Source: Gaiella occulta
Lineage (GTDB): Bacteria; Actinomycetota; Thermoleophilia; Gaiellales; Gaiellaceae
DNA length: 64,000 nt
Assembly (NCBI RefSeq): GCF_003351045.1
Contig: NZ_QQZY01000001.1
Span: forward strand, 186,001 to 250,000
Direction of reading: 5' to 3'
A program made the translations under genes and the position numbers. The notes below the pieces were generated by a model. That model was not told the origin of the DNA, did not search any database, and was given only the letters and a program-made list of their open reading frames with translations. Numbering within the stretch: position 1 is the stretch's first letter; each line of letters opens with the position of its first letter. This document shows, piece after piece, positions 33,930 through 49,908 of this stretch.

Positions 33930-36014
33930 CTACTTGCGCGTGCGCCCGTCCGTGAGGCGGCGCGAGCGCTGCTGCGCGCGGCGCATCAAGGCGGCCTGGT
34001 GGTCGAACGGCTTGCCGGGCCGTGCGGGCCGCAGGCGCGACCACGAGCCGTCGGCGGCGAGCGCCCACGATTGCGCGTCGTCGGCGAAGACGCTGTCGAG
34101 CACGGCGCCGAGCTCCTGGCGGGCGCGCGCGTTCTCGACGGGTACGAGCACCTCGATGCGGCGGTCGAGGTTCCGCGGCATGAGGTCGGCGCTGCCGATG
34201 AAGATCGTGCTCGACGCGCCGGCCTCGAACGAGTAGATGCGGCTGTGCTCGAGGAAGCGCCCGAGGATCGACCGTACGCGGATCCTCTCGGAGAGCCCTT
34301 CGACGCCGGGCCGCAGCATGCAGACCGAGCGTGCGCAGACCTCGACGTCCGCTCCCGCGGTGCTCGCCGCGTAGAGCTCGTCGATGATCGTCGCGTCGAC
34401 GAGGTTGTTGAGCTTGAGGCGGACGCGCGCGGGCCCGCCCGCGGCCGCGGCGGCCGCGACGCGCCGGATCTCGTCCACGAGCCGCGCCCGCATCCCGAAC
34501 GGCGCCACGAGCAGCTTGCGGAAACGCTGCGGCCTGCCGAAGCCGGTGACGTAGTTGAAGACGTCGGCGACGTCGGCCGCGATCTCCTCGTCGGCCGTGA
34601 ACAGGCCCACGTCCTCGTACAGGCGCGCCGTCGCCGCGTGGTAGTTGCCGGTGCCGATGTGCACGTAGCGCCGCAGTCCGCCCGCCTCGCGGCGCACGAC
34701 GAGGGTCATCTTCGCGTGGATCTTCATGTCGGGGAACCCGTGCACGACGTGCACCCCCGCCTGCTCGAGCTCGCGCGACCATTCGATGTTGCGCCGCTCG
34801 TCGAAGCGCGCCTTGAGCTCGACGAGGCACACCGACTGCTTCCCCTGCTCTGCGCAGTCGATCAGCGCGGACACGAGCGCGCTGTCGTCCGAGGTGCGGT
34901 AGACGGCCGTCTTCATCGCGATCACGTCGGGGTCGGAGGCGGCTGCGGCCGCGAACGCCTCGAAGCTCGTCCGGAACGACTCGTACGGCTGCTGTACGAG
35001 CAGGTCGCCGCGGCGGATCTCGTCGAAGAAACGTGCCCCGTCCTTGACGCGCGCGAGGCGCGGCTGCGTGACCGGCACCCACGGCTCGTGCTTGAGGTCG
35101 GGACGCTCCAGCCGTGTCAGCTGGATCAGGTCGGCCTGGTCGAGCGGCCCTTCGATCTCGTACACCTGGCTCGGAGCGACTGCGAGCCCGTCCTGCAGGC
35201 GCTCGAGCATGCCGGCCGACGCCGACGCCGAAACCTCCACACGTACGACGTCGCCGAAGCGCCGCCGCCGCAGCTCCGACTCGACGGCCTCGAGCAGGTC
35301 GTCGGCGTCGTCGGAGACCTCGAAGTCGGCGTCGCGCGTGACCCGGAACACCGCCCGCTCGCCGATCTCCATGCCCGGGAACAGCATCGGCAGGAAGTGG
35401 CCGATCACGACTTCGAGCGGGAGCAGGCGCTTGCCGGTGTCGACGAAGCGGTCGAGCCCTTCCGGGATCTTCACGCGGGCGAACCGCTCCTCTGCGGTCT
35501 CCGGGTCGACTGCGAGCACGCCCAGCGAGAGCGACAGCCCCGAGATGTAGGGAAACGGTTGCCCGGGACCGACGGCGAGAGGGGTCAGCACGGGGTAGAT
35601 CTCGCGCACGAAGCGCGTCTCGAGGCGCCGGAGCTCCTTCGCGCCGCACTCGTCGATCGTGCCGACGGGGATGCCCTCGGCGGCGAGCGCCGGGCGGAGC
35701 TCGCGCTTCCACAGCTTCGCCTGCCGGGCTGTGAGGTCGACGACGCGGTCGCGGATGCGGGCGAGCGCCTGCTGCGGCGTGAGCCCGTCGCTCGAGCGCA
35801 CGCCGAAGCCGGCCGCCTCCTGCCCCATCAGGCCGGCGACGCGCACCATGAAGAACTCGTCCAGGTTGGACGAGAAGATCGAGCAGAACCTGACCCGCTC
35901 GAGCAGCGGCTGCCCGGGGTCCTGTGCGAGGTCGAGCACGCGCGCGTTGAAATCGAGCCAGGAGAGCTCGCGGTTGAGCAGCCGCGGCTCCGCGACCTTC
36001 GTCTCCACGCTCAT
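33930..36014 (-). CDS. ppk: Polyphosphate kinase 1
   Basis: Reversibly polymerises the gamma phosphate of ATP into inorganic polyphosphate. It has 694 residues. The N-terminal domain opens LLNRELSWLDFNARVLDLA. The autophosphorylated histidine region is YVHIGTGNYHAATARLYED, and the second conserved histidine is in FLEHSRIYSFEAG. FDERRNIEW and MKTAVYRTSDDS are also family hallmarks. It converges on ettA with 17 bp between stops. In mycobacteria ppk1 is next to mutT1; here the Nudix gene is one gene away, so part of that neighbourhood is conserved. Confidence 0.94.
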   Translation of the reverse strand: MSVETKVAEPRLLNRELSWLDFNARVLDLAQDPGQPLLERVRFCSIFSSNLDEFFMVRVAGLMGQEAAGFGVRSSDGLTPQQALARIRDRVVDLTARQAKLWKRELRPALAAEGIPVGTIDECGAKELRRLETRFVREIYPVLTPLAVGPGQPFPYISGLSLSLGVLAVDPETAEERFARVKIPEGLDRFVDTGKRLLPLEVVIGHFLPMLFPGMEIGERAVFRVTRDADFEVSDDADDLLEAVESELRRRRFGDVVRVEVSASASAGMLERLQDGLAVAPSQVYEIEGPLDQADLIQLTRLERPDLKHEPWVPVTQPRLARVKDGARFFDEIRRGDLLVQQPYESFRTSFEAFAAAAASDPDVIAMKTAVYRTSDDSALVSALIDCAEQGKQSVCLVELKARFDERRNIEWSRELEQAGVHVVHGFPDMKIHAKMTLVVRREAGGLRRYVHIGTGNYHAATARLYEDVGLFTADEEIAADVADVFNYVTGFGRPQRFRKLLVAPFGMRARLVDEIRRVAAAAAAGGPARVRLKLNNLVDATIIDELYAASTAGADVEVCARSVCMLRPGVEGLSERIRVRSILGRFLEHSRIYSFEAGASSTIFIGSADLMPRNLDRRIEVLVPVENARARQELGAVLDSVFADDAQSWALAADGSWSRLRPARPGKPFDHQAALMRRAQQRSRRLTDGRTRK

Positions 36015-36081
36015 GCGCGGATCGTGCCAGACCCCGCCGCCGGGAGCGTCTCGATCCGGAGCACGAGAGCCGCGAGCGCCG

Positions 36082-37149
36082 TTACGCGTCCGCCGCGAGC
36101 GCGGCGACGAGCAGGCGCTCGAAGTGGGCGATCAGCCGCTCGGAGCGCGCTAGCAGCGCCCCCTCCGCGATCACGCCCGAGCGCATCCCGAGCTGGACGC
36201 GCTCGACGAGCGCCCGGTCCTCGGCGCCGACGCGGTCGTCGAGCTCGAGGTAGTCCGTCACCCACTCCTCGTCGATGCCGGGCTCGAAGAAGTAGTCGAG
36301 GAAGCGGTACGTGCGCTCGGCGCCGAGCGGCACGATCGGGCCGATCGAGAGGTTGCCGCGCCCCGGCATGACGTTGATCGCGGTGTTCGGGAAGAGCAGG
36401 TGGAACTGGCCGCGGCCGACCCTGCCGGCGGCGTCGTAGACGCCGCCGCCGCCGTTCTTCGGGGGCCCGTACTGGCTCGAGAAGGTCGGGTGCTCCTCGA
36501 GCGCGTACGCGCTCGCCGCCACGTCGATCGCCTTCGAGAAGCTCGGGTGCGCGACGGCGCAGTGGTAGCACTCGAGGTAGTTCTCTGCGCACACCTTCCA
36601 GTTCGCCTCGAGCTCGCTCTCGGCGCGACTGTGGAAGACGAGCCCGTCCACGTCCACGCCGCCGTCCTCGACGAGGCGCGGCAGCTCGCCGAGGTGCTCG
36701 GCGAGCGGGGCGGCCGCGGGATCCGGATTCACGAACACGAACGGCCCCCACGTGTCGACCTGCACCGGGACCAGCCCGAGCGCCGCACGGTCGAGGCCGG
36801 GCTCGTCGTCGCAGCGCGGCGCGGCGCGCAACGACCCGTCGAGGTCGTACGTCCACGCGTGGTACGGGCACTGCAGCGTCTCGCGCCTGCCGGCGCCCTC
36901 GCACAGCAGGTGGCCGCGATGGCGGCAGACGTTGACGAAGCCGCGCAGCTCTCCCGCCCCGTCGCGGACGAGCACGATCGGGATATGGCCCGCGCGCGTG
37001 ACGGCGAACGAGCCTGGCTCCGGCACGTCGCCGGTGTGGCCGGCGTACTGCCAGCTCATGCGGAAGATCCGCTCCTGCTCGAGCCGCAGCACGGCAGGAT
37101 CGGCGTACCAGTCCCACGGAATCGTGCGGGTGCTCTGGGCGCTCGCCAT
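36082..37149 (-). CDS. Rieske oxygenase alpha subunit, quaternary-ammonium type
   Basis: A 355-residue ring-hydroxylating-type oxygenase. Rieske ligands are Cys75, His77, Cys94 and His97 (VCRHRGH...CPYHAW). The mononuclear iron site is in NYLECYHCAVAH with His196 and His201. The residue bridging the two sites is Glu193, where most arene dioxygenases have Asp; Glu is typical of carnitine and betaine/choline oxygenases, so a quaternary amine is a better guess than an aromatic. No reductase or ferredoxin gene is nearby. The ATG at 37149 is chosen because TACGCT sits eight bases upstream; a TTG at 37158 would abut it. Confidence 0.82.
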   Translation of the reverse strand: MASAQSTRTIPWDWYADPAVLRLEQERIFRMSWQYAGHTGDVPEPGSFAVTRAGHIPIVLVRDGAGELRGFVNVCRHRGHLLCEGAGRRETLQCPYHAWTYDLDGSLRAAPRCDDEPGLDRAALGLVPVQVDTWGPFVFVNPDPAAAPLAEHLGELPRLVEDGGVDVDGLVFHSRAESELEANWKVCAENYLECYHCAVAHPSFSKAIDVAASAYALEEHPTFSSQYGPPKNGGGGVYDAAGRVGRGQFHLLFPNTAINVMPGRGNLSIGPIVPLGAERTYRFLDYFFEPGIDEEWVTDYLELDDRVGAEDRALVERVQLGMRSGVIAEGALLARSERLIAHFERLLVAALAADA

Positions 37150-37240
37150 CGAGGCCAAGCGTATCGCGCGGTCAGCCGAGGCACGCGCGCCGCACGCCGG
37201 GGCCAGGCCGCCCGGCGGTGCGCACCGCCGCCGCCCTGCG

Positions 37241-38626
37241 CTATGCCGTCAGGTCGTGCGCGAGCTCCTCGAACACCGCCACGAAGCGGTCGCACTCCGC
37301 GAAGGTGTGGGTGATCGACAGCGTCCATTCCTCCTCGCGGCCCGGCGTCATGAAGATGCCGCGGTTCATGTTGTAGAGCCAGGCGAGCTCGCAGAGCTCG
37401 GCGTCCTGGTTCGCCTTGAAGGACGCGTAGTCGCTGATCCTCTCGGGCGAGAACGTGACGCACCCCTTGGAGCCGACGCCGACCGCGTAGCCCGGGAAGC
37501 TGAACTTCTCGATCACCGCCTGGCAGCCCTGCATGAGGCGGTCGTTGAGCGTGTCGAGGTGCGCGTAGGCCGCGGGCGTCAGCACCTCGAGCAGGTTCGC
37601 GCGCGCGGCCGCCATCGAGAGCGGGTTGCCGTTGTAGGTGCCGACCTGCACGACCTTGCCCGCCTCGACGAGCTCGAATGCCTCCTCGGTACCGCCGATC
37701 GCGCCGGAGGGGAGGCCGCCGCCGAGCGCCTTCGCGAGCGTGACGAGGTCGGGCCTGACGCCGAAGCGCTCGACCGCGCCGCCGGCGGCGATGCAGAGGC
37801 CCGTCTTGACCTCGTCGAAGATGAGAAGGATCCCGTGCCTGCGCGTGATCTCCCGCACCGCCTCGAGGTAGCCGGGCTCGGGCAGCACGACCCCGAGGTT
37901 CATCATCGCCGCCTCCATGATCACGCAGGCGGGCGCCCGCCCCTCCTCGATCAGTCGCTCGATGCGGCGCTCCATCGCCTCTGCGTCGTTGAACGGCACC
38001 GCCACCGTCATCTCGGCCACCGCCCGGGGGATGCCCAGGCCGTAGGGCAGCGACGCCAGGTCGAAGCGGTCGCCGATCCTGTCGTACTCGACCCCGATCG
38101 AGACCATCACGTAGTCGTGGTGTCCGTGGTAGGAGCCGAAGATCTTGACGATCGTGTCGCGGCCGGTGGCCGCCCGTGCGATGCGGATCGCGTCCATCGT
38201 CGCCTCGGAGCCCGAGTTGACGTAGCGCCATTTCGGCAGCCCCCAACGTCGTGCAAGCTCCTCGCCGACGACGATGGCGTCCTCGGTCGGGGCGGCGAAG
38301 TGCGTTCCGAGCTCGATCCGCGCGTTCACGGCCTTCGTGATCGTCGGGTGCGCATGTCCCTGCACCATCGATCCGAAGCCGTTGTGGAAGTCGATGAGCT
38401 CGTTGCCGTCGACGTCCCACACGCGCGCGCCCTTGCCGCGCTCGAGGTAGATGGGCCACGGGTCGCGGGTCTGGTACGACGAGGCGACGCCGCCGGCGAG
38501 GCTGCGTCGCGCCCGCTCGTAGAACGCCCGGGAGCCCTGCGTGCGCTCGTCGAGCCTTCGCGCCTCGCGCTCGCTCAGCTCTCTGATGCGCGCGCGGTCG
38601 ATCTGGACGGGGACGTGAGTTGCCAT
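37241..38626 (-). CDS. Class III PLP aminotransferase (GSAM-like)
   Basis: A 461-residue fold-type I enzyme: VNSGSEATMDAIRIARAATGR, FGSYHGHHDYV, LIFDEVKTGL and the PLP lysine in TLAKALGGGLPSG. It resembles glutamate-1-semialdehyde aminomutase and omega-aminotransferases. The long N terminus and partnering with a Rieske oxygenase (same strand, 91 bp apart) argue for a catabolic aminotransferase, not heme synthesis. GGAG lies nine bases before the ATG. A palindromic operator is 28 bp upstream. Confidence 0.82.
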   Translation of the reverse strand: MATHVPVQIDRARIRELSEREARRLDERTQGSRAFYERARRSLAGGVASSYQTRDPWPIYLERGKGARVWDVDGNELIDFHNGFGSMVQGHAHPTITKAVNARIELGTHFAAPTEDAIVVGEELARRWGLPKWRYVNSGSEATMDAIRIARAATGRDTIVKIFGSYHGHHDYVMVSIGVEYDRIGDRFDLASLPYGLGIPRAVAEMTVAVPFNDAEAMERRIERLIEEGRAPACVIMEAAMMNLGVVLPEPGYLEAVREITRRHGILLIFDEVKTGLCIAAGGAVERFGVRPDLVTLAKALGGGLPSGAIGGTEEAFELVEAGKVVQVGTYNGNPLSMAAARANLLEVLTPAAYAHLDTLNDRLMQGCQAVIEKFSFPGYAVGVGSKGCVTFSPERISDYASFKANQDAELCELAWLYNMNRGIFMTPGREEEWTLSITHTFAECDRFVAVFEELAHDLTA

Positions 38627-38653
38627 CGTCTGGCTCCGTTTCGGCGGGTTCGG

Positions 38654-38671
38654 TCTGACCTTGCGGTCAGA
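38654..38671. promoter_or_regulatory. Palindromic operator upstream of the aminotransferase
   Basis: TCTGACC-TTGC-GGTCAGA is a perfect 7-bp-arm inverted repeat in the 119-bp divergent gap between the aminotransferase and the peptidase. The TGACC/GGTCA half-sites match the core of the operator at 11682-11701. It is followed by a short tandem repeat, ATTGTGGCG twice. Confidence 0.6.
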
Positions 38672-38745
38672 TTGTGGCGGATTGTGGCGATTTTCGCCCC
38701 GGCCTGCTCGCCGTTGCCGTCGTGAGCATCTCTACACTGCCGACC

Positions 38746-40314
38746 GTGACGCCCGCCCGGAGCATCGCAGACCGCATCGACGAGGAGCTCGCCCCGCTCC
38801 AGACCGCGGTCTCCCGCGCCTGGTGGGACCTGAACGTCGAGGCGACGGAGGAGAACGAGCGCCGGCGTGTCGCGCTCGAGAGGGAGCTTTCGGACTTCCT
38901 CGCCGACGCCGACCGCTTCGCGCAGATCGAGGCGGCGCTGCCCGGGGCGGAAGGGCTCGAAGCGCGCCGGCTCGGCCTCCTGCGCGACGCGCTGCTTCCG
39001 AGGCAGGTGGCGGCGGAGGTACGTCAGCGCATCATCGAGATCGAGGCGTCCGTCGAGATGCGCTTCTCGACCCACCGCGGTGAGGTCGGCGGCCGCGCCG
39101 TCGACGACAACGGCATCAAGGCGATCCTGCGCTCGAGCGACGACGTGGCAGAGCGGCGTGCGGCCTGGGAGGCGTCGAAGACCGTTGGCGCGTCGGTCGC
39201 CGACGATGTCCGCGCGCTCGCGCGGCTGCGCAACGAGGCGGCGCGCACGCTCGGATACCGCGACTGGTTCGCCCTCTCGGTGGCGACGTCCGAGATGGAC
39301 GAGCAGCGGCTGTTCTCCACGCTCGACGCCTGCGACCGCGCCACGGCCGAGCCGTTTGCACGCTGGAAGGCGGCGGTCGACGAGTGCCTCGCCGAGCGCT
39401 TCGGCTGCCCCGTCGCCGACCTGCGCCCGTGGCACTACGCGGACCCGTTCTTCCAGGAGGTGCCGGCGGAGGGCGGCGTCGACCTCGACCCGGTGTTCGC
39501 GGGCCGCGACCTCGTCGAGCTGAGCCGCGCCACGTTCGACGGCCTCGGGCTCGAGACCCGGGCGATCCTCGAACGCAGCGACCTCTTCCCGCGCGACGGC
39601 AAGTGCCAGCATGCGTTCTGCATCGACGTCGACCGCGCCGGGGACGTGCGCGTGCTCGCCAACATCGTGCCGGACGCCTACTGGATGGACACGATGCTGC
39701 ACGAGCTCGGCCACGGCGTCTACGACGCCGGCTTCGACCGTTCCCTGCCCTGGCTGCTGCGGGACTGCCACCTCGTCGTCACCGAGGGCATCGCGATCCT
39801 GATGGGCCGCCTCGCGAGCGACGCCGGCTGGCTCGAGCAGGTTGCAGGCGTCGGCGCGGCGGAGGCGGCGAGGCTCGCGGGGCCGTTGCGCGCCGCGCGC
39901 GCCGCCGAGCTGCTCGTGTTCACGCGCTGGGTGCTCGTGATGACGAACTTCGAGCGCTCGCTCTACGCCGACCCGGAGATGGATCTGGACGCGCGCTGGT
40001 GGGAGCTCGTGCAGCGCTACCAGCTCGTCGCGCCGCCCGACGGACGCCGTGCCCCCGACTGGGCGGCGAAGATCCACGTCGCCTGTGCGCCTGTCTACTA
40101 CCACACCTACCTCTACGGGCAGCTCGTCGCCTCGCAGCTCGCCGGCACCCTGTGCCGCGAGTGCGGCGGCATCGTCGGCCGTGAGGCGGCCGGGCGCCTT
40201 CTCCGCGACCGCGTCTTCGCGCCGGGGCTCTCGCTGCGGTGGGACCGGCTGCTCGAGCAGGCGACGGGGGAACCGCTCGATCCCGCCCATTTCGTTCGCG
40301 ACATCGCAGGCTGA
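38746..40314 (+). CDS. Zinc metallopeptidase, M3/M2-like gluzincin
   Basis: A 522-residue helical peptidase. The zinc site is HELGH (His319, Glu320, His323) with third ligand Glu347 in VVTEGIAILMG, 24 residues on. Substrate-side segments FCIDVDRAGDVRVLAN and YYHTYLYGQLVASQL resemble dipeptidyl-carboxypeptidases and oligoendopeptidases. There is no signal peptide, so cytosolic oligopeptide degradation is likely. The GTG at 38746 is preferred over an in-frame ATG at 38674: TACACT lies seven bases before it, and the extra N-terminal residues would overlap the divergent operator region. Confidence 0.82.
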   Translation: MTPARSIADRIDEELAPLQTAVSRAWWDLNVEATEENERRRVALERELSDFLADADRFAQIEAALPGAEGLEARRLGLLRDALLPRQVAAEVRQRIIEIEASVEMRFSTHRGEVGGRAVDDNGIKAILRSSDDVAERRAAWEASKTVGASVADDVRALARLRNEAARTLGYRDWFALSVATSEMDEQRLFSTLDACDRATAEPFARWKAAVDECLAERFGCPVADLRPWHYADPFFQEVPAEGGVDLDPVFAGRDLVELSRATFDGLGLETRAILERSDLFPRDGKCQHAFCIDVDRAGDVRVLANIVPDAYWMDTMLHELGHGVYDAGFDRSLPWLLRDCHLVVTEGIAILMGRLASDAGWLEQVAGVGAAEAARLAGPLRAARAAELLVFTRWVLVMTNFERSLYADPEMDLDARWWELVQRYQLVAPPDGRRAPDWAAKIHVACAPVYYHTYLYGQLVASQLAGTLCRECGGIVGREAAGRLLRDRVFAPGLSLRWDRLLEQATGEPLDPAHFVRDIAG

Positions 40315-42557: not shown

Positions 42558-43631
42558 ATGTCCAGAGCTCGAAAGACCAGCACTCCGCGCCGGTTCCGGC
42601 GCACGCCGCTTCTCGCCGCGCTTGCGGCGCTCCTCCTGGCCGCAGCCGTCCTCGGCGGCGGTGTCGCGTCCGCCGGCCAGACCGGGAGCAGCGCCAAGCT
42701 CAAGGTCTTCGGCGCGTTCGCAACGCCGATCGAGGAGCCGTGGGACGGGGTCATCCATGCCGCCCTCCTACGGGCGAAGAACGCCGGCGAGATCGACTAC
42801 TCGTTCGCCGATGACATCGGCTACTCGGGTGACATGGAGCGGGTGCTGCGCCAGGTCGCCGGAAAGAACAAGCCGGACATCATCATCGGCGACGCCTTCG
42901 GCAACGAAGAGGCCGTCCGTCGCGTCGCGAAGGCCTTCCCGCGCATCGCCTTCGTCTTCGGCTCGGGCGGCGGGCCTGCCGGACCGAATGTCTCCGTCTT
43001 CGACAACTGGATCCATGAGCCGGCCTACCTGCTCGGCGTGCTCGCCGGGTCGTTGACGAAGACGAACAAGGTCGGCATCGTCGCCGGCTTCCCGGTTCCC
43101 GAGGTCAACCGGCTCGCGAACGCGTTTACCGCCGGTGCCCACTCGATCAACAAGAAGGCTGTCGTCAAGGTGACGTTCATCAACAGCTGGTTCGACCCGG
43201 CCACGGCGAAGGAGGCCGCGCTGGCGCAGGTCGGGGCGGGCGTCGATGCCATCTATGCCGAGCGCGCAGGCGTGATCGAGGCCGCTGTGCAGAAGGACGT
43301 GTTCGCCTTCGGGAACATGTCCGATCAGCGGAAGATCGGCCCGCGGAACGTCGTCTCGAGCGCTGTCTGGAACATGTCGCCGACAGTCGAGTACGTGATC
43401 AAGCAGGTCAAGGCGGGCACGTACACGGCGCAGGACCTGAAGGACTTCTCGATGATGGGCAAGGGCGGAGCGAGCCTCGCTCCGATCAACGCCCGGGCCA
43501 AGGGCGGCGTTCCAGCCAGGCTCGTCGCGAAGGTCAACGGCCTGCGTGCGCAGATCAAGTCGGGCGCGCTTCGGGTGGACATCAACGAGGCGCAGCCGTC
43601 GGGCTCGGTCTCGGTCAAGGGCAAGCAGTAG
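42558..43631 (+). CDS. BMP-family ABC transporter substrate-binding protein
   Basis: A 357-residue extracytoplasmic binding protein of the BMP (basic membrane protein/Med/PnrA) family, whose members mostly bind nucleosides. The signal peptide has an arginine-rich start (TPRRFRRTPLLAALAALLL) and cleaves near ASA; there is no lipobox cysteine. Family features are DIGYSGDMERVLRQVA, IIIGDAFGNEEAVRRVA, FDNWIHEPAYLLGVLAG and VDAIYAERAGVIEAA. It heads an operon with one double ATPase, two permeases and a deaminase, so the ligand is probably a nucleoside or nucleobase. Confidence 0.88.
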   Translation: MSRARKTSTPRRFRRTPLLAALAALLLAAAVLGGGVASAGQTGSSAKLKVFGAFATPIEEPWDGVIHAALLRAKNAGEIDYSFADDIGYSGDMERVLRQVAGKNKPDIIIGDAFGNEEAVRRVAKAFPRIAFVFGSGGGPAGPNVSVFDNWIHEPAYLLGVLAGSLTKTNKVGIVAGFPVPEVNRLANAFTAGAHSINKKAVVKVTFINSWFDPATAKEAALAQVGAGVDAIYAERAGVIEAAVQKDVFAFGNMSDQRKIGPRNVVSSAVWNMSPTVEYVIKQVKAGTYTAQDLKDFSMMGKGGASLAPINARAKGGVPARLVAKVNGLRAQIKSGALRVDINEAQPSGSVSVKGKQ

Positions 43632-43653
43632 GTGTGACGGTAACGCAACCGCT

Positions 43654-45192
43654 GTGACCTCGGCCAACCTGGGTTCCACGGTGGGCGGGGACGACCCGCC
43701 CACCGTGGAGCTTCGCGGCGTTACGAAGCGCTTCGGGAACGTCGTCGCCAACGACGATGTCCATCTCTCCGTCAGGCGCGGCGAGGTGCACGCGCTGCTC
43801 GGCGAGAACGGCGCCGGCAAGACGACGCTGATGCGGATCCTCTACGGCCTCGCTCGGCCCGACGCCGGCGTCACCCTGATCGACGGACGGCCGCTGACGA
43901 TCCATTCGCCGAAGGACGCGATCGCCGCCGGCATCGGGATGGTGACCCAGCACTTCGCTCTCGTGAAGCCGATGACCGTCACCGAGAACGTCGTCCTCGG
44001 CGGTACCGACGGCGTCCGCGTGAGGCTGGACGTCGCCGCGAGGAGCGTCAAGGGGGCGTCGGAACGCTTCGGCATCCGGGTCGATCCGCTGGCGAGGGTG
44101 GGCGCGCTCTCGGTGGGGGAGCAGCAGCGCGTCGAGATCCTGAAGGCGCTCTACCGGGACTGCAGGGTGCTGATCCTCGACGAGCCGACGGCCGTCCTCG
44201 TGCCGCAGGAGGTGGAGGCGCTCTTCGCGACGCTGCGGCGTCTCTGCGCCGACGGCATCGCGGTGGTCTTCATCAGTCACAAGCTGCACGAGGTCCGCGA
44301 GATCAGCGCGCGCGTCACGGTGCTTCGGCGCGGGGCCGTCGTCGGCACCTACGCGACGGCCGACGTCGACGACCGGGAGCTCGCGACGCTGATGGTCGGC
44401 CGCACGATCCGGCCGCTGCAGCGCCCAGCAGCATCCGTCTCGGGCGCCACCGTGCTCCGCGTCGAGGGTGTCTCCGCCGAGGGCCGCCAGCGGCTTCCCG
44501 CCCTGCGCCGCGTGTCGTTCGAGGTGCGGCGCGGCGAGGTTCTCGGCGTCGCGGGCGTGTCGGGCAACGGCCAGACAGAGCTCGTGAACGTGCTCTGCGG
44601 CATGCAGCAGCCGACCGAGGGGGTCATAGCCGTCGACGACGTGGACATCACCGGGTCGACGCCGGCCGAGGTCGTGGACGCCGGCGTCGGCCGCATCCCC
44701 GAGGACCGCCACGCCGCCGTCGTCGGCGAGCTCAGCGTGGCGCAGAACCTCGCGCTCGAACATCTTGCGGAGTTCCGCCAAGGGATCCGGTTGGACGAGA
44801 GGCGAATGCGGCAGCACGCGGAGGCGCTGATCGACCGTTTCGCGATCAAGGCGCGCCCGGAGGATCCCGTCGACACCCTTTCCGGCGGCAATCTGCAGAA
44901 GGTCGTCCTGGCACGGGTGTTGTCGCGCGATCCGAAGGTGATCGTCGTCTCCCAGCCGACTCGCGGCCTCGATCTCGGCGCAACCGAGTACGTGCACGGC
45001 GAGCTTCTCGCCCAACGGCAGCGAGGGGCCGGCGTGCTGCTCGTGAGCGAGGACATGGACGAGATCCTGGCGCTCTCGGATCGGCTCATCGTGGTCTACG
45101 AAGGCGTGATCGTGGGTGAGGTCTCGGCGGCGCAGGCAGACCCCGAGCGGCTCGGCCTGCTGATGGCGGGGCTCGCCGGGCGGGCGGCGTGA
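43654..45192 (+). CDS. Nucleoside-type ABC transporter, double ATP-binding protein
   Basis: A 512-residue fusion of two ABC domains, as in the NupO/RbsA group. The first has Walker A GENGAGKTT, signature LSVGEQQRVEI and Walker B ILDEPTAVL. The second has a degenerate Walker A (GVSGNGQTEL) but an intact signature LSGGNLQKVVLAR. MVTQHFALVKPMTVTENVVLG is characteristic of nucleoside importers. It starts at GTG 43654, 22 bp after the binding-protein stop, and overlaps the next gene by 4 bp. Confidence 0.9.
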   Translation: MTSANLGSTVGGDDPPTVELRGVTKRFGNVVANDDVHLSVRRGEVHALLGENGAGKTTLMRILYGLARPDAGVTLIDGRPLTIHSPKDAIAAGIGMVTQHFALVKPMTVTENVVLGGTDGVRVRLDVAARSVKGASERFGIRVDPLARVGALSVGEQQRVEILKALYRDCRVLILDEPTAVLVPQEVEALFATLRRLCADGIAVVFISHKLHEVREISARVTVLRRGAVVGTYATADVDDRELATLMVGRTIRPLQRPAASVSGATVLRVEGVSAEGRQRLPALRRVSFEVRRGEVLGVAGVSGNGQTELVNVLCGMQQPTEGVIAVDDVDITGSTPAEVVDAGVGRIPEDRHAAVVGELSVAQNLALEHLAEFRQGIRLDERRMRQHAEALIDRFAIKARPEDPVDTLSGGNLQKVVLARVLSRDPKVIVVSQPTRGLDLGATEYVHGELLAQRQRGAGVLLVSEDMDEILALSDRLIVVYEGVIVGEVSAAQADPERLGLLMAGLAGRAA

Positions 45193-46292
45193 GCGGCGTG
45201 ATCCGCATCCGCCTCGAGCAGCGCCCGGCACCGGCACGGTGGCTCGGCCTCGCCGTGGGCCCCCTGACGATCGTGGTCACGTTCGTGCTCACGCTCGGAT
45301 TCGTGTTCGCCGCGGGCGCGAACCCGTTGACCGCGTATCGCACGTTCATCGTCGAGCCGCTGACGTCGCGCTTCACGCTGCTGGAGGTGCTCGTGTCGGC
45401 GACGCCGCTCCTCTTCACCGGGGCGGCGGTCGCGATCGCCTTCCGCGCCGGCTACTGGAACATCGGCGCGGAGGGTCAGCTGCTCGTCGGGGCGATCGCC
45501 GCGACGTGGGCCGGGACGCACGTCGGCGGCGCGCCGCGCGTCGTCGCGATCGCCGCCGTCGCCGGGGCCGGCGCCGTCGGCGGCGCCGTCTGGGCACTCG
45601 CTCCGGCGCTCATGCGCGTGCATCTCTCGATCGACGAGGTGGTGACGACGCTGCTCCTCAACCCGGTCGCGTTGCTGCTCGTGACCGGCCTGCTCAACGG
45701 CCCGTGGAGGAATCCGGAGACACACTTCCCCGAATCGAAGCGGATCTCCTCGAACGCGCAGTTTCCGCAGATCCTGCCGGACTCGCGGCTCCACCTGGGC
45801 TTCGTGATCGCGCTCGTCATCGTCGGCATCCTCTGGTTCGTGCTCGGGCGGACGGCGACCGGGCTGCGGCTGCGCGCCTCCGGGCTCAGCCCCGAGGCTG
45901 CGAGGTTCGCCGGCATCGGGGTGGGTCGCCTGCTTCTCGGCACCGCGCTCACGAGCGGCGCGATCGCGGGGATCGCCGGAGCGAGCGAGGTCGCCGGCAT
46001 CAACTACCAGCTCACGGACGGCATCTCGTCGGGGTTCGGCTACACGGGTATCGTCGTCGCCACGCTGGGAGGCCTGAGCATGCTCGGCGTCGTCGTCGCT
46101 TCACTCTTCCTCGGCGACCTCGTCGTCGGCGCCGATTCGGCGGGGCTCGAGCTCGGCGTCCCCTCCCAGCTCGCCGACATCGTCAAGGGGGCGCTCCTGC
46201 TCGTCGTGATCGCGCTGCTCGTTCTGCGCCGCTACCGCCTGTCCTTCCGTCGGCCGGCAGGCGGAGGAGTCGAGCCGGGGAGCAGCGCGTGA
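45189..46292 (+). CDS. Nucleoside-type ABC transporter permease 1
   Basis: A 367-residue membrane protein with about nine hydrophobic helices, BPD_transp_2 family (YufP/NupP type). Visible are ATPLLFTGAAVAIAFRAGYWNIGAEGQLLVGAI, the family signature, and GLRLRASGLSPEAARFAGI, the ATPase-coupling loop. The GTG start overlaps the ATPase gene stop; its own stop overlaps the next permease start. It forms the translocation pore with the following gene product. Confidence 0.9.
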   Translation: MSGVIRIRLEQRPAPARWLGLAVGPLTIVVTFVLTLGFVFAAGANPLTAYRTFIVEPLTSRFTLLEVLVSATPLLFTGAAVAIAFRAGYWNIGAEGQLLVGAIAATWAGTHVGGAPRVVAIAAVAGAGAVGGAVWALAPALMRVHLSIDEVVTTLLLNPVALLLVTGLLNGPWRNPETHFPESKRISSNAQFPQILPDSRLHLGFVIALVIVGILWFVLGRTATGLRLRASGLSPEAARFAGIGVGRLLLGTALTSGAIAGIAGASEVAGINYQLTDGISSGFGYTGIVVATLGGLSMLGVVVASLFLGDLVVGADSAGLELGVPSQLADIVKGALLLVVIALLVLRRYRLSFRRPAGGGVEPGSSA

Positions 46293-47191
46293 GCTTCGTC
46301 TCCGATGTCCTTGCGGCAACCCTGCGCAACGCGACCCCGCTCGTCTACGGCACGGTCGGCGAGACGTACTGCGAGCGGGCGGGGATCCTTAACCTCGGCA
46401 TCGAGGGGACGATGTACGCCGGGGCGTTCTTCGGCTTCCTCGCAGCACAGACCTCGGGCTCGCTCGTCGTCGGCCTCGTCACCGCGATCGCCGTCGGGCT
46501 CGGGTCGGGCGTCCTCATGGGCGTGCTGACCGTCACGTTCGGGACGAACCAGCACGTCGCGGGCCTCGGCACGACACTCTTCCTGATCGGCGCCGCGGAC
46601 TTCGCCAACCGTCTCCAGTTCCGTGGCAGCCAGGCGCAGGCGACGATCAAGCCGTTCGGCATCGTGGACGTGTTCGGCGTCGACGTGCTCTCGCAGTACG
46701 CGATGACGTATGTCGCCTTCCTTGTGATCGTGCCGCTCGCCTGGTGGGTGCTGATGCGGACGACCCTCGGCCTGAACATCCGCGCCGTCGGCGAGAACCC
46801 GGAGGCGGCGGACGCAGCGGGGGTCAGCGTCGCTCGTACCCGTTACCTCGCGCTCATGATCGGCGGCGCGTTGATGGGGGTCGGCGGCGCGTTCTTCACG
46901 CTGGCCGCCCTCGGCAGCTTCACGCTCAACATCATCGCGGGGCGCGGCTGGGTCTGCATCGCGCTCGTGATCTTCGGCCGCTGGCGCATCGGCCGCGGCG
47001 TCGTCGGCGCCCTCCTCTTCGCGTTCGTGTACGCCCTCCAGCTCCGCCTGCGGCTCATCCCCTCCCTTGCCGGCGTACCCTTCGAGTTGCTCCTCGCCCT
47101 GCCGTACGTCGTCGTCATCGCGGCCCTCGTCCTCTCCGGCCGCAACGTGGCGTACCCGGGCGCCTATCTGAAGCCGTACCGACGGGCGTGA
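46289..47191 (+). CDS. Nucleoside-type ABC transporter permease 2
   Basis: A 300-residue membrane protein with about eight hydrophobic helices (YufQ/NupQ type). The signature TPLVYGTVGETYCERAGILNLGIEGTMYAGAF appears near the N terminus, and the coupling loop is GLNIRAVGENPEAADAAGVSVARTRYLALM. The GTG start overlaps the permease 1 stop (GTGA). The deaminase gene begins 10 bp after its stop with a strong AAGGAG site, so import and deamination are one operon. Confidence 0.9.
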   Translation: MSFVSDVLAATLRNATPLVYGTVGETYCERAGILNLGIEGTMYAGAFFGFLAAQTSGSLVVGLVTAIAVGLGSGVLMGVLTVTFGTNQHVAGLGTTLFLIGAADFANRLQFRGSQAQATIKPFGIVDVFGVDVLSQYAMTYVAFLVIVPLAWWVLMRTTLGLNIRAVGENPEAADAAGVSVARTRYLALMIGGALMGVGGAFFTLAALGSFTLNIIAGRGWVCIALVIFGRWRIGRGVVGALLFAFVYALQLRLRLIPSLAGVPFELLLALPYVVVIAALVLSGRNVAYPGAYLKPYRRA

Positions 47192-47201
47192 AAGGAGACC
47201 G

Positions 47202-47645
47202 ATGAACGACCATGAGTTCCTCGAGACGGCGATCGAGCAGGCCCGGATCGGACGGGCCGAGGGCGGGGTGCCCGTCGGGGCGGCACTCGTGGCCGACGGC
47301 CGCGTGCTGGCGGTCGGTCGCAACCGCCGCGTGCAGATGGGCAGCACGATCAGGCACGGCGAAACCGACGCGCTCGAGCGCGCCGGCCGCCTGACCGCGG
47401 AGGTCTATCGGCGAGCCACGATGTTCACCACTCTCTCGCCCTGCGACATGTGCACGGGCGCGATCCTGCTCTACGGGATACCGCGCGTCGTCATCGGCGA
47501 CGACACGACCTTCCGCGGCCCCGAGGAGCTGCTCGCCGCGCGCGGCGTCGAGGTCGTCCACCTTCGGTCCGCGGAGTGCAGAGAGCTGATGGAGGGGTTC
47601 ATGGCGGAGTTCCCCACGCTCTGGAACGAGGACATCGGCGTGTGA
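47202..47645 (+). CDS. Cytosine deaminase-like protein (yeast Fcy1 type)
   Basis: A 147-residue zinc hydrolase of the CMP/dCMP-deaminase fold. Zinc ligands are His52 in RHGETDALE and Cys81/Cys84 in SPCDMCTGAI, with catalytic Glu54. The whole protein tracks yeast cytosine deaminase Fcy1 from memory: GRL...VY, TLSPCDMCTGAI, YGIPR, a C-terminal EDIG after a Trp. It is therefore more like Fcy1 than TadA or guanine deaminase. It would convert cytosine (or a related base) to uracil after import by the upstream ABC system. AAGGAG lies five bases before the ATG. Confidence 0.82.
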   Translation: MNDHEFLETAIEQARIGRAEGGVPVGAALVADGRVLAVGRNRRVQMGSTIRHGETDALERAGRLTAEVYRRATMFTTLSPCDMCTGAILLYGIPRVVIGDDTTFRGPEELLAARGVEVVHLRSAECRELMEGFMAEFPTLWNEDIGV

Positions 47646-47749
47646 CGGCCGTCGCTGCGAGCGAGCCGGCTTGAGGCGGGAATAGAGGAATAGAGGACCG
47701 CCCCGCGCCGGTAGGTGCATGAGCGTGCGCGTTGGGTCAGACTACGGGC

Positions 47750-48976
47750 GTGCCTGAGCGAGAGGCGGCTTTCGAGTTCCTGCGCGAGCAGCTTGGCGAC
47801 GGCGGCGTCGACGCCGACGGCGTTGTCGCCGAGCTGCGGCGCCTCGAGATCGAGACGCCCTCATGGGGCTACGGGAACTCGGGCACGCGGTTCCACGTGT
47901 TCCCCTGGCCCGGGGCGGCGAGGACAGTGTGGGAGCGGATCGCGGACGCCGCACTCGTTCACCGGCTCACGGGCACGTGCCCGAGCGTCGCGATCCACAT
48001 CCCGTGGGACCGGGTCGACGACTGGACGGCGCTGCGCGGGTACGCCGAGGGACAGGGAGTCCGCCTCGGTGCCGTCAACCCGAACCTCTTCCAGGACGAC
48101 GTGTACCGACTCGGGAGTGTCTGCCACCCGGACGCGGCCGTCCGGCGGCAGGCCCTCGACCACGTCCTCGAGTGCGTCGAGATCGCGTGCCGGATCGACT
48201 CGGGGATCCTCAGCCTCTGGCTCGCCGACGGCACGAACTACCCAGGCCAGGACGACTTCCGCGGCCGCTACCGCCGCCTGCTCGAGTCGCTCGGCGAGGT
48301 CTACGCGGCGCTGCCCGACGGCATGCGCCTGCTCGTCGAGTACAAGTTCTTCGAGCCGGCTTTCTACCAGACCGACCTGCCCGACTGGGGCACGGCGCTG
48401 CTCGTTTGCCGGCGACTGGGGCCGCAGGCGCAGGTTCTCGTTGACACCGGTCACCACCCGCAGGGGACGAACATCGAGCAGATCGTCGCGCTCCTCCTCG
48501 TGGAGGGGGCGCTCGGCGGGTTCCACTTCAACAACCGCAAGTACGCCGACGACGACCTGATCGTCGGCTCGGTCGAGCCGTTCGAGCTCTTCCTCATCCT
48601 CAACGAGATCGTCGCCGCCCGTCGCGACTCGGCGACGACGGCGACGGCTGAGACGATCGCGTTCATGATCGACCAAGCGCACAACGTCGAGGGGAAGATC
48701 GACGCGATGATCCAGTCGGTCGTCAACATCCAGACGGCCTACGCAAAGGCCCTCCTCGTCGACCGGCTCCGGCTGGACGAGGCGCGCCGCGCGGGCGACG
48801 TGCTCGGCGCGCACCGGGTCCTCCTCGACGCGTACGAGACGGACGTGCGGCCGCTGCTCGCGCACCTGCGCGCGCAGCTCGGTCTCGCGCCCGACCCGGT
48901 GCAGGCGTTCCGCGAGGGCGGCTACGCCGAGCGGCTCGCCGCCGAGCGCGGCGCGATCGCCTACGAGCCGCGATGA
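47750..48976 (+). CDS. rhaI: L-rhamnose isomerase (RhaI type)
   Basis: Converts L-rhamnose to L-rhamnulose; a TIM-barrel metal-dependent isomerase of the RhaI (Streptomyces/Pseudomonas stutzeri) subtype, unrelated in length to E. coli RhaA. It has 408 residues. Metal-site segments include [30 protein letters not shown] and [15 protein letters not shown]. It starts at GTG 47750, with CAGACT six bases before; an in-frame TTG at 47732 would lie before that element. Its stop overlaps the PfkB kinase ATG. Confidence 0.88.
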
Positions 48977-49908
48977 TCGCCTCCCTCGGGGAGGCGATCA
49001 TCGACTTCACGCCGTTCGAGCGTGACGGGCGCCTGGCGGGCTTCGAGCTCAACCCCGGCGGCTCGCCCTACAACGTCGCCCTCGCGGCCGCGCGGCTCGG
49101 CTACCCGACGTCCTTCGTCGGGCGCGTCTCCACCGACCTCTTCGGGCGCATCCTCGTCGAGCGGCTCGAGGCGGAGGGCGTCGACACGAGCCTGCTCCTC
49201 ACAGGGCCGGAGCCGACGACGCTCGCATTCGTCGCGTACGAGGGCGGCGAGGCGCGCTACAGCTTCCGCGGCGAGAACGCGGCGGACGCGCTGCTCGCGC
49301 CGGGCGCGATCGCCACCGGCGACCTCCGCCGCTTCGAGGCCGTCCACCTGGGCTCGATCAGCCTCTTGCGCGAGCCGGGCGCAAGCACGATCCTCGGGCT
49401 CGCGCGCGCGCTCGCGGGAGGCATGACGCTCTCCTTCGACCCCAACGTCCGGCCGGGCCTCGTCGCCGACTGGCACGCCTACCGCGCGCTGCTCGGCGAG
49501 ATCGCCCGGCTCGCCGGCCTCGTGAAGGTGAGCGAGGACGATCTCGAGCTCTGGGGCGAGGAGCCGGCGGCGCTGGCGGCATCCGGCCCCGGCGCCGTCG
49601 TCGTCACACGAGGCGCGGAGGGGAGCCGGCTCTACCGCCCGGGTCTCTCTCTCGACGTGCCCGCGCTGCCCGCGCGCGTCGTCGATACCGTCGGCGCGGG
49701 GGACGCCTTCACCGCCGGGCTGCTCGTCTCGCTCGGCCGGCGGGGCGCGCTGGCGCGGCCGGCGCTCGCCGCGCTCGCCGAGGAAGAGTGGCGCGCGGCG
49801 CTGATCTTCGCGTCGGCGGTGGCCTCGCTCACCTGCGAGCGGCGCGGCGCGAGTCCGCCGACGGCCTCGGAGGTCGAGCAGCGGCTCGCCGTCGCCGGGC
49901 GGGACTAG
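48973..49908 (+). CDS. PfkB-family carbohydrate kinase
   Basis: A 311-residue ribokinase-like sugar kinase. Signature 1 is [19 protein letters not shown], with [11 protein letters not shown]; signature 2 is [17 protein letters not shown] with the catalytic Asp and anion hole. The opening [12 protein letters not shown] is typical of fructokinase/KDG-kinase members. It is translationally coupled to rhaI (ATGA overlap). Since rhamnulose is phosphorylated by the separate RhaB, this kinase probably handles another ketose made from the same plant or bacterial polysaccharides. Confidence 0.88.

Follow-up and report, generated by a model that had tools for sequence, protein, structure and literature searches.

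The locus and its two genes

This work deals with a window of 64,000 nucleotides of the genome of Gaiella occulta (contig NZ_QQZY01000001.1 of assembly GCF_003351045.1, positions 186,001 to 250,000), in which 58 proteins are called, and in particular with two neighbouring genes on its minus strand. One of them, at 36082–37149, encodes a Rieske oxygenase (here R) with the active-site residues of the so-called group V and, as in group Va, an aromatic residue at the position equivalent to 203 of the carnitine monooxygenase CntA. The other, at 37241–38626 and upstream of R, encodes an intact class III aminotransferase of 461 aa (here A), which is dependent on pyridoxal phosphate (PLP) and similar to glutamate-1-semialdehyde aminomutases (GSAMs). 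A first-pass annotation of this DNA had proposed both as a new amine-catabolic route of an oxygenase and a transaminase, and both open reading frames lie where it had placed them and on the same strand. Of that proposal, the amine nature of R holds up well, whereas a dedicated two-gene pathway is not supported.

R has 355 aa from its ATG at 37149, the start that agrees with an alignment of close relatives, and would have 358 aa from an in-frame TTG at 37158. The intergenic stretch between A and R (37150–37240, minus strand) measures 91 bases to the ATG or 82 to the TTG. No promoter-like (sigma-70-like) site was found in this gap, and no terminator-like site was found in 35900–38900. The genome consists of 34 contigs with 3,028,529 bases and is 97.92% complete.

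Residues, tree position and fold of the oxygenase

R matches the Pfam families Rieske (4.7e-19) and Ring_hydroxyl_A (9.2e-27). Passages of two papers on CntA (PMC7948474, PMC10952381) describe a bridging Glu in group V, accompanied in some members by a pair of Cys, and divide the group by the residue at CntA position 203, which is aromatic in Va (carnitine, choline and benzalkonium enzymes) and Asn in Vb (GbcA, Stc2). R has the Glu bridge and the Cys-x-x-Cys beside the mononuclear iron, in place of Asp, and also the aromatic residue of group Va. Counted from the ATG, the bridging residue is Glu193, the number given in the first-pass annotation (E196 from the TTG); its codon is at 36571–36573 on the minus strand, within ENYLECYHC, where it is flanked by the Cys pair and has at −2 the Tyr (Tyr191) that corresponds to Y203 of CntA. 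An alignment of R with 17 relatives shows this Glu unchanged in all 18 rows. Over the larger set of clustered R rows, the bridging Glu and both Cys equivalents are kept in 36 of 36, and the two iron-binding histidines and the Asp are likewise kept. The 203 position is occupied by Tyr (15 rows) or Phe (21 rows) and never by Asn, which is the residue found in Stc2 and three related references. It should be mentioned that the three references called GbcA-like or Stc2-like here are named by their neighbours and not by a family cut-off: a hybrid-cluster oxidoreductase is found beside all three and a glycine-betaine binding protein beside two of them. In NdoB and BenA, Asp replaces the bridging Glu and there is no Cys pair.

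A maximum likelihood tree of 80 rows agrees with the residues. It separates NdoB and BenA from R and the other rows at 100/99, the arene side being made of these two rows only, both with long branches. R is placed in a clade of 58 rows (96/91), apart from CntA and YeaW and from the GbcA-like/Stc2 group; this clade is uncharacterised and, among the sequences gathered here, mainly from Thermoleophilia. The first-pass annotation had singled out a grouping with arene dioxygenases as the outcome that would speak against it, and R stands away from them. The AlphaFold model of R has a pLDDT of 91.5, and CntA is its top match with Foldseek and also with VIA (Z 39.2, rmsd 2.6, 350 aligned), followed by terephthalate dioxygenase (TPADO) with Z 37.1. 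The best PDB match by sequence is CntA as well (7e-52). Since residues, tree position and best fold match point the same way, and relatives of R are found in amine-catabolic neighbourhoods, we think that the assignment of R as a putative amine-type (group V) Rieske oxygenase is well supported.

The aminotransferase, the neighbourhoods and the electron supply

A matches the Pfam family Aminotran_3 (1.9e-62, 211.7 bits against a cut-off of 30.5), and its best matches in PDB and NCBIfam are GSAMs. K299 and D271, which from knowledge of the family we take to be the PLP residues, are invariant in 28 aligned rows. The relatives aligned to A are mostly close to it, 25 of 27 being 64–85% identical and the other two 40 and 44%, which suggests an old and well-kept enzyme. 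Of 42 A-cluster places, 6 have a DAO-type FAD enzyme no more than three genes from A, compared with none of 518 background genes, and 3 have an S58 peptidase; such company would fit amine or amino-acid breakdown. An S58 (DmpA-type) peptidase gene also lies directly upstream of R in another genome of the genus (L087 of G132), and adjoins A at L109, L127 and L130.

The association of R with A was counted in 299 genomes of the class, with matches taken at 1e-30 for R and 1e-120 for A. R matches were found in 105 of them and A matches in 91; in the family Gaiellaceae there are 60 genomes with R, 16 with A and 14 with both. The first-pass annotation would have been contradicted by relatives that never show the two genes together, and sometimes they are together. 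In G135, R and A share a strand with a gap of about 30 bases, and a gene for a Pot-type ATPase precedes A by some 10 bases. In G284 (L074), a DAO gene lies between R and A, both A and DAO being on the strand opposite to R and A being cut by the contig end, and in G138 about 9 kb of the same contig separate R and A. With G. occulta left out, 39 genomes remain, of which 2 show linkage of R and A where chance would give about 0.12 (P 0.006).

The association is stronger for class III aminotransferases in general: at 5 of 44 R places one of them lies no more than two genes away, compared with about 0.6 expected (P 0.0005); the P value is 0.02 without the window and L104, the latter having been fetched because of the adjacency. 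All these chance estimates are rough Poisson calculations that assume gene and copy numbers, and the 44 places (36 + 8) are mostly best R matches rather than a random sample. They include R genes added with tblastn at L065, L068, L097, L101 and L103, which the gene finder had missed, and at L092, which was unclustered. Three of the five places (the window, L104 of G135 and L074 of G284) have an aminotransferase of the A type, and the other two (L067, L071) one of the PRK06541 type. In G219, R is directly next to the gene of a PRK06541-type aminotransferase (598 bits, cut-off 574), and the order aminotransferase, aldehyde dehydrogenase (ALDH), R is found in G039 (L071) with gaps of about 10 bases, the aminotransferase being a 71%-identical PRK06541-type piece cut by the contig end. 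Transamination recurs beside R, then, but not always through A. A wider count, with an aminotransferase within five genes of R at 7 of 36 places (p 0.03), was set aside; it included argD-like genes of arginine clusters (L075, L077), which are left out of the 5 of 44. In the open-licence PMC literature, searched with a limited set of terms, no title or abstract opening was found that brings together a Rieske oxygenase of group V and an aminotransferase.

The first claim, that R is partnered only by A, is incomplete: A adjoins it, but another gene follows on the same strand, at 33930–36014 (minus), 67 bases downstream of R. Its product is presumably like polyphosphate kinases, a name given from the sequence. 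Divergent from A, at 38674–40314 on the plus strand, there is a gene for what we take to be a metallopeptidase-like protein with a HELGH motif, also named from the sequence. The adjacency of R and the polyphosphate-kinase-like gene recurs at L085, L086, L088 and L094, which makes it commoner than that of R and A. The HELGH peptidase-like gene adjoins A in G138 and G150, adjoins R in G289 and G003, and is one gene away from R in G277. Farther along the window, the plus strand holds at 42558–49908 a run of genes for a BMP-type binding protein, an ABC ATPase, two permeases and deaminase-like and sugar-isomerase-like proteins, which, with names given from sequence, we take to be a locus for nucleoside or base uptake and use.

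In a sister clade of R, there are amine-related genes among the neighbours. A TetR regulator with a BetI-type C-terminus, a Pot-type ATPase and flavin amine oxidases are found near R at L075, L076, L077 and L084. In G069, the genes near R include a GcvT/DmdA-like one (298 bits, cut-off 410) and one for a protein that, among solved structures, matches histamine dehydrogenase best and trimethylamine dehydrogenase as well. Three genomes, G135 (L104), G265 (L262) and G205 (L263), share an island formed by R, Pot-type ABC genes, a HisC-like PLP enzyme, an enzyme dependent on thiamine pyrophosphate (TPP), which in G265 is cut by the contig end, and a homologue of trimethylamine dehydrogenase; A is present in only one of these dehydrogenase islands. 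Among 13 sampled genomes of the family that have both R and a trimethylamine/histamine-dehydrogenase homologue, the two are within 10 kb on one contig in four (G069, G265, G135, G205) and directly adjacent in two, for rough chance expectations of 0.17 within nine genes and 0.02 for adjacency. The ABC genes that follow R in the g5 genomes had been considered as a polyamine type, an idea that was dropped, the tested binding protein best matching sugar-binding structures.

Regarding electron supply, the first-pass annotation had pointed out that no reductase is encoded at the locus. This is borne out, with no reductase homologue among the window proteins, and it extends to the whole genome of G. 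occulta, in which no FNR-type reductase (PF00175, PF00970) was matched at 1e-3. CntB-, BetT- and SSADH-like proteins were not found in the window either. G132, G138 and G150, the remaining genomes of the genus with R, likewise gave no PF00175 match; the domain was found in 59 of 81 family genomes, including G079, G306 and G307 of the genus, of which G079 has no R match and the other two were outside the R search. The Fer2 matches of G. occulta are presumably, from their sequences, a RamA-type protein, small subunits of molybdopterin hydroxylases and NuoG. With no FNR-type enzyme found in the genome, a CntB-like partner of R is unlikely. Homologues of GR-type ferredoxin reductases are present, with candidates at C1:627893-629074 and C1:156100-157215, and thus the electron donor of R is most likely one other than CntB. 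A small Rieske protein is encoded near C1:18342. Outside the window, C1:147214-148899 encodes a protein of 561 aa in which an N-terminal Rieske-type domain is joined to a cytochrome P450-like part. It directly follows a gene for an APC-permease-like protein, in a run with an ALDH, a luciferase-like monooxygenase, a GR-type ferredoxin reductase and a PLP decarboxylase. We take this run to serve amine or amino-acid breakdown; apart from the Rieske-domain, ALDH and reductase assignments, the names are given from sequence only.

Interpretation and comparison with known Rieske systems

Our tentative preference is for R as an N-alkylamine monooxygenase, probably one that cleaves the C–N bond, which would be loosely tied to transamination by A. 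According to this explanation, R would bind a cationic N-alkylated amine, most likely a quaternary one, through the Tyr at the CntA-203 position, and would receive electrons across the subunit interface through Glu193. Hydroxylation of the carbon beside the nitrogen would then break the C–N bond, giving a smaller amine and an aldehyde. A would most likely convert an amino acid into the resulting (semi)aldehyde or a related amino-aldehyde and back, as a loosely linked helper whose place elsewhere might be taken by an aldehyde dehydrogenase or a different class III aminotransferase. The electrons could come from one of the GR-type ferredoxin reductase candidates together with a Rieske-type or other ferredoxin. 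The Tyr at position 203 points to C–N cleavage, as in CntA, rather than to the demethylation of GbcA and Stc2, with a marker that is not clean. The amine part of the first interpretation is kept, and a loose partnership of R and A in amine breakdown is plausible.

Several observations weigh against this explanation. In the family, 46 of the 60 R-bearing genomes have no A match, and the presence of A does not follow that of R (Fisher p 0.33, taking 20 family genomes without R, a number that is listed). Among the matches listed, only 3 of the 40 genomes with both show R and A separated by one gene or none (that of G. occulta, G135 and G284); in two of the 40 (G041, G256) there are weak R-like places outside the matches listed, which are not comparable, and some draft contig ends hide neighbours. 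A fourth case, G207, has A beside a mere fragment of R. Four genomes of the genus have both genes, and only in G. occulta are they directly adjacent. With co-occurrence not significant and adjacency rare, R and A do not form a conserved pair, and a dedicated operon is not supported. Moreover, the adjacencies of R with the polyphosphate-kinase-like gene and of A with the peptidase-like gene are better kept in the genus than that of R with A, so the closeness in G. occulta may reflect a shortened locus. The dehydrogenase links belong to the sister clade, no such dehydrogenase was found in the G. occulta genome at 1e-80, and the binding proteins found next to some Rs match amino-acid or sugar types, not amine-specific ones. 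As for the aromatic marker, Phe at 203 also occurs in 11 actinobacterial rows that fall with GbcA-like/Stc2 (99/99), and inside the 58-row clade L189 has Asn and a plasmid protein of Rhodococcus erythropolis has Ala. Finally, the set of residues that forms the pocket of CntA (Y225, F258, N270, Y295, Y315, F319) is not complete in R: Y225 and N270 are kept, Y295, Y315 and F319 are not, and F258 is kept in the HMMER alignment and not in the MAFFT one, which disagree by one column. With three of the six carnitine-pocket residues not kept, carnitine is no safe guess as the substrate of R.

The strongest competitor, which we consider a serious possibility though a somewhat weaker one, is that R would be an amine oxygenase to which A is unrelated, the latter being an old and widespread aminotransferase of Thermoleophilia that became a neighbour by rearrangement of the locus. 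It is consistent with the many class genomes that have an A match and no R match, with the identity that 25 of the 27 A orthologues keep whatever their neighbours, and with the g2 relatives lacking an A match (L093, L094), in which R adjoins the peptidase-like gene, so that A looks inserted between them in the genus. What this reading leaves as coincidence is the recurrence near R of class III aminotransferases of two subfamilies, which stays beyond chance without the window and L104, and the R–A linkage outside G. occulta. A real alternative to C–N cleavage, although we find it rather unlikely, is that R removes an N-methyl group as formaldehyde, in the manner of GbcA and Stc2, and that A deaminates the freed primary amine, as in the first-pass annotation. 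Group V does include demethylases, according to a passage of PMC7948474; the 11 Phe-203 rows grouped with GbcA-like/Stc2 make an aromatic residue compatible with demethylation; and DAO-type FAD enzymes, which would be able to strip further methyls, lie near A and, at L074, between R and A. On the contrary, the Asn of Stc2 and the GbcA-like references is in none of the 36 clustered R rows, R scores 149 bits with the NCBIfam model of GbcA (NF058607) against a cut-off of 670, which discards equivalence with GbcA, and sister Rs are near trimethylamine-dehydrogenase homologues, which would consume a released methylamine.

Two other explanations carry far less weight. That R might be an arene or other non-amine ring hydroxylase, with A acting on an aromatic amino acid, could be supposed from the default name 'aromatic ring-hydroxylating dioxygenase' of some annotated relatives and from several arene dioxygenases that come nearly as high on fold (Z 33–37). 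It is very improbable in view of the Glu bridge, the Cys pair and the tree position away from NdoB and BenA, by which an identity as arene dioxygenase is rejected, and no homologue of NdoC or BenB (the beta subunit) was found among the 58 window proteins. We find it hardly conceivable that A could be the HemL of the haem pathway and R a chance neighbour. GSAMs are indeed the best sequence matches of A and share its Lys and Asp, but A reaches only 351 bits against the cut-off of 527.3 of the hemL model TIGR00713, and another gene of the genome, C11:11589-12815, passes with 561.

A wider and more speculative proposal, which we regard as a long shot, is an undescribed route in Gaiellaceae for cationic amino-acid betaines resembling trimethyllysine; G. 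occulta would keep a stripped-down version with R and A, R being fed by a GR-type ferredoxin reductase. In such a route, the alpha-amino acid would be transaminated and decarboxylated to an omega-ammonio aldehyde or acid by the HisC-like and TPP-dependent decarboxylase-like enzymes of the island. R would then cleave the C–N bond, the methylamine would be burnt with the trimethylamine-dehydrogenase homologue of the island, and the semialdehyde would be recovered by a class III aminotransferase or an ALDH. Apart from this proposal, a clade related to the carnitine-splitting enzymes in hardly cultured Thermoleophilia of soil and water would widen the sources of methylamines. With R matches (E 1e-30 or better) in 60 sampled genomes of a single family, and with no CntB-type reductase found in a cultured type strain, it also raises the question of how the oxygenase gets its electrons. 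Strain F2-233 of G. occulta is available from collections as CECT 7815 and LMG 26412, and the question is thus testable.

When compared with known systems, R comes close to CntA and YeaW, with which it shares the Glu bridge, the Cys-x-x-Cys, the Tyr at 203 and the equivalents of H208, H213, D323, Y225 and N270. It differs from them in being 31–34% identical and in belonging to a separate clade; in the tree, CntA and YeaW are on another branch, and R is not placed as a CntA carnitine monooxygenase. Carnitine-splitting Rieske enzymes are known mainly from Proteobacteria, and in both known loci compared here the oxygenase is accompanied by a CntB-like reductase. With GbcA and Stc2, R has in common the Glu bridge and the Cys pair, but it has Tyr instead of Asn at 203, is a shorter protein and lies in a separate clade. 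A third point of comparison is a putative ring-hydroxylating protein of the Rhodococcus rhodochrous plasmid pNit, which is annotated near a BetT, two aldehyde dehydrogenases, a PDR/VanB reductase and an FAD oxidoreductase. Its cluster holds a reductase and aldehyde dehydrogenases, with no aminotransferase listed in the 19-kb stretch, and it has Phe at 203. Nevertheless, it is 44% identical to R, belongs to the same 58-row clade and carries the same Glu and Cys signature.

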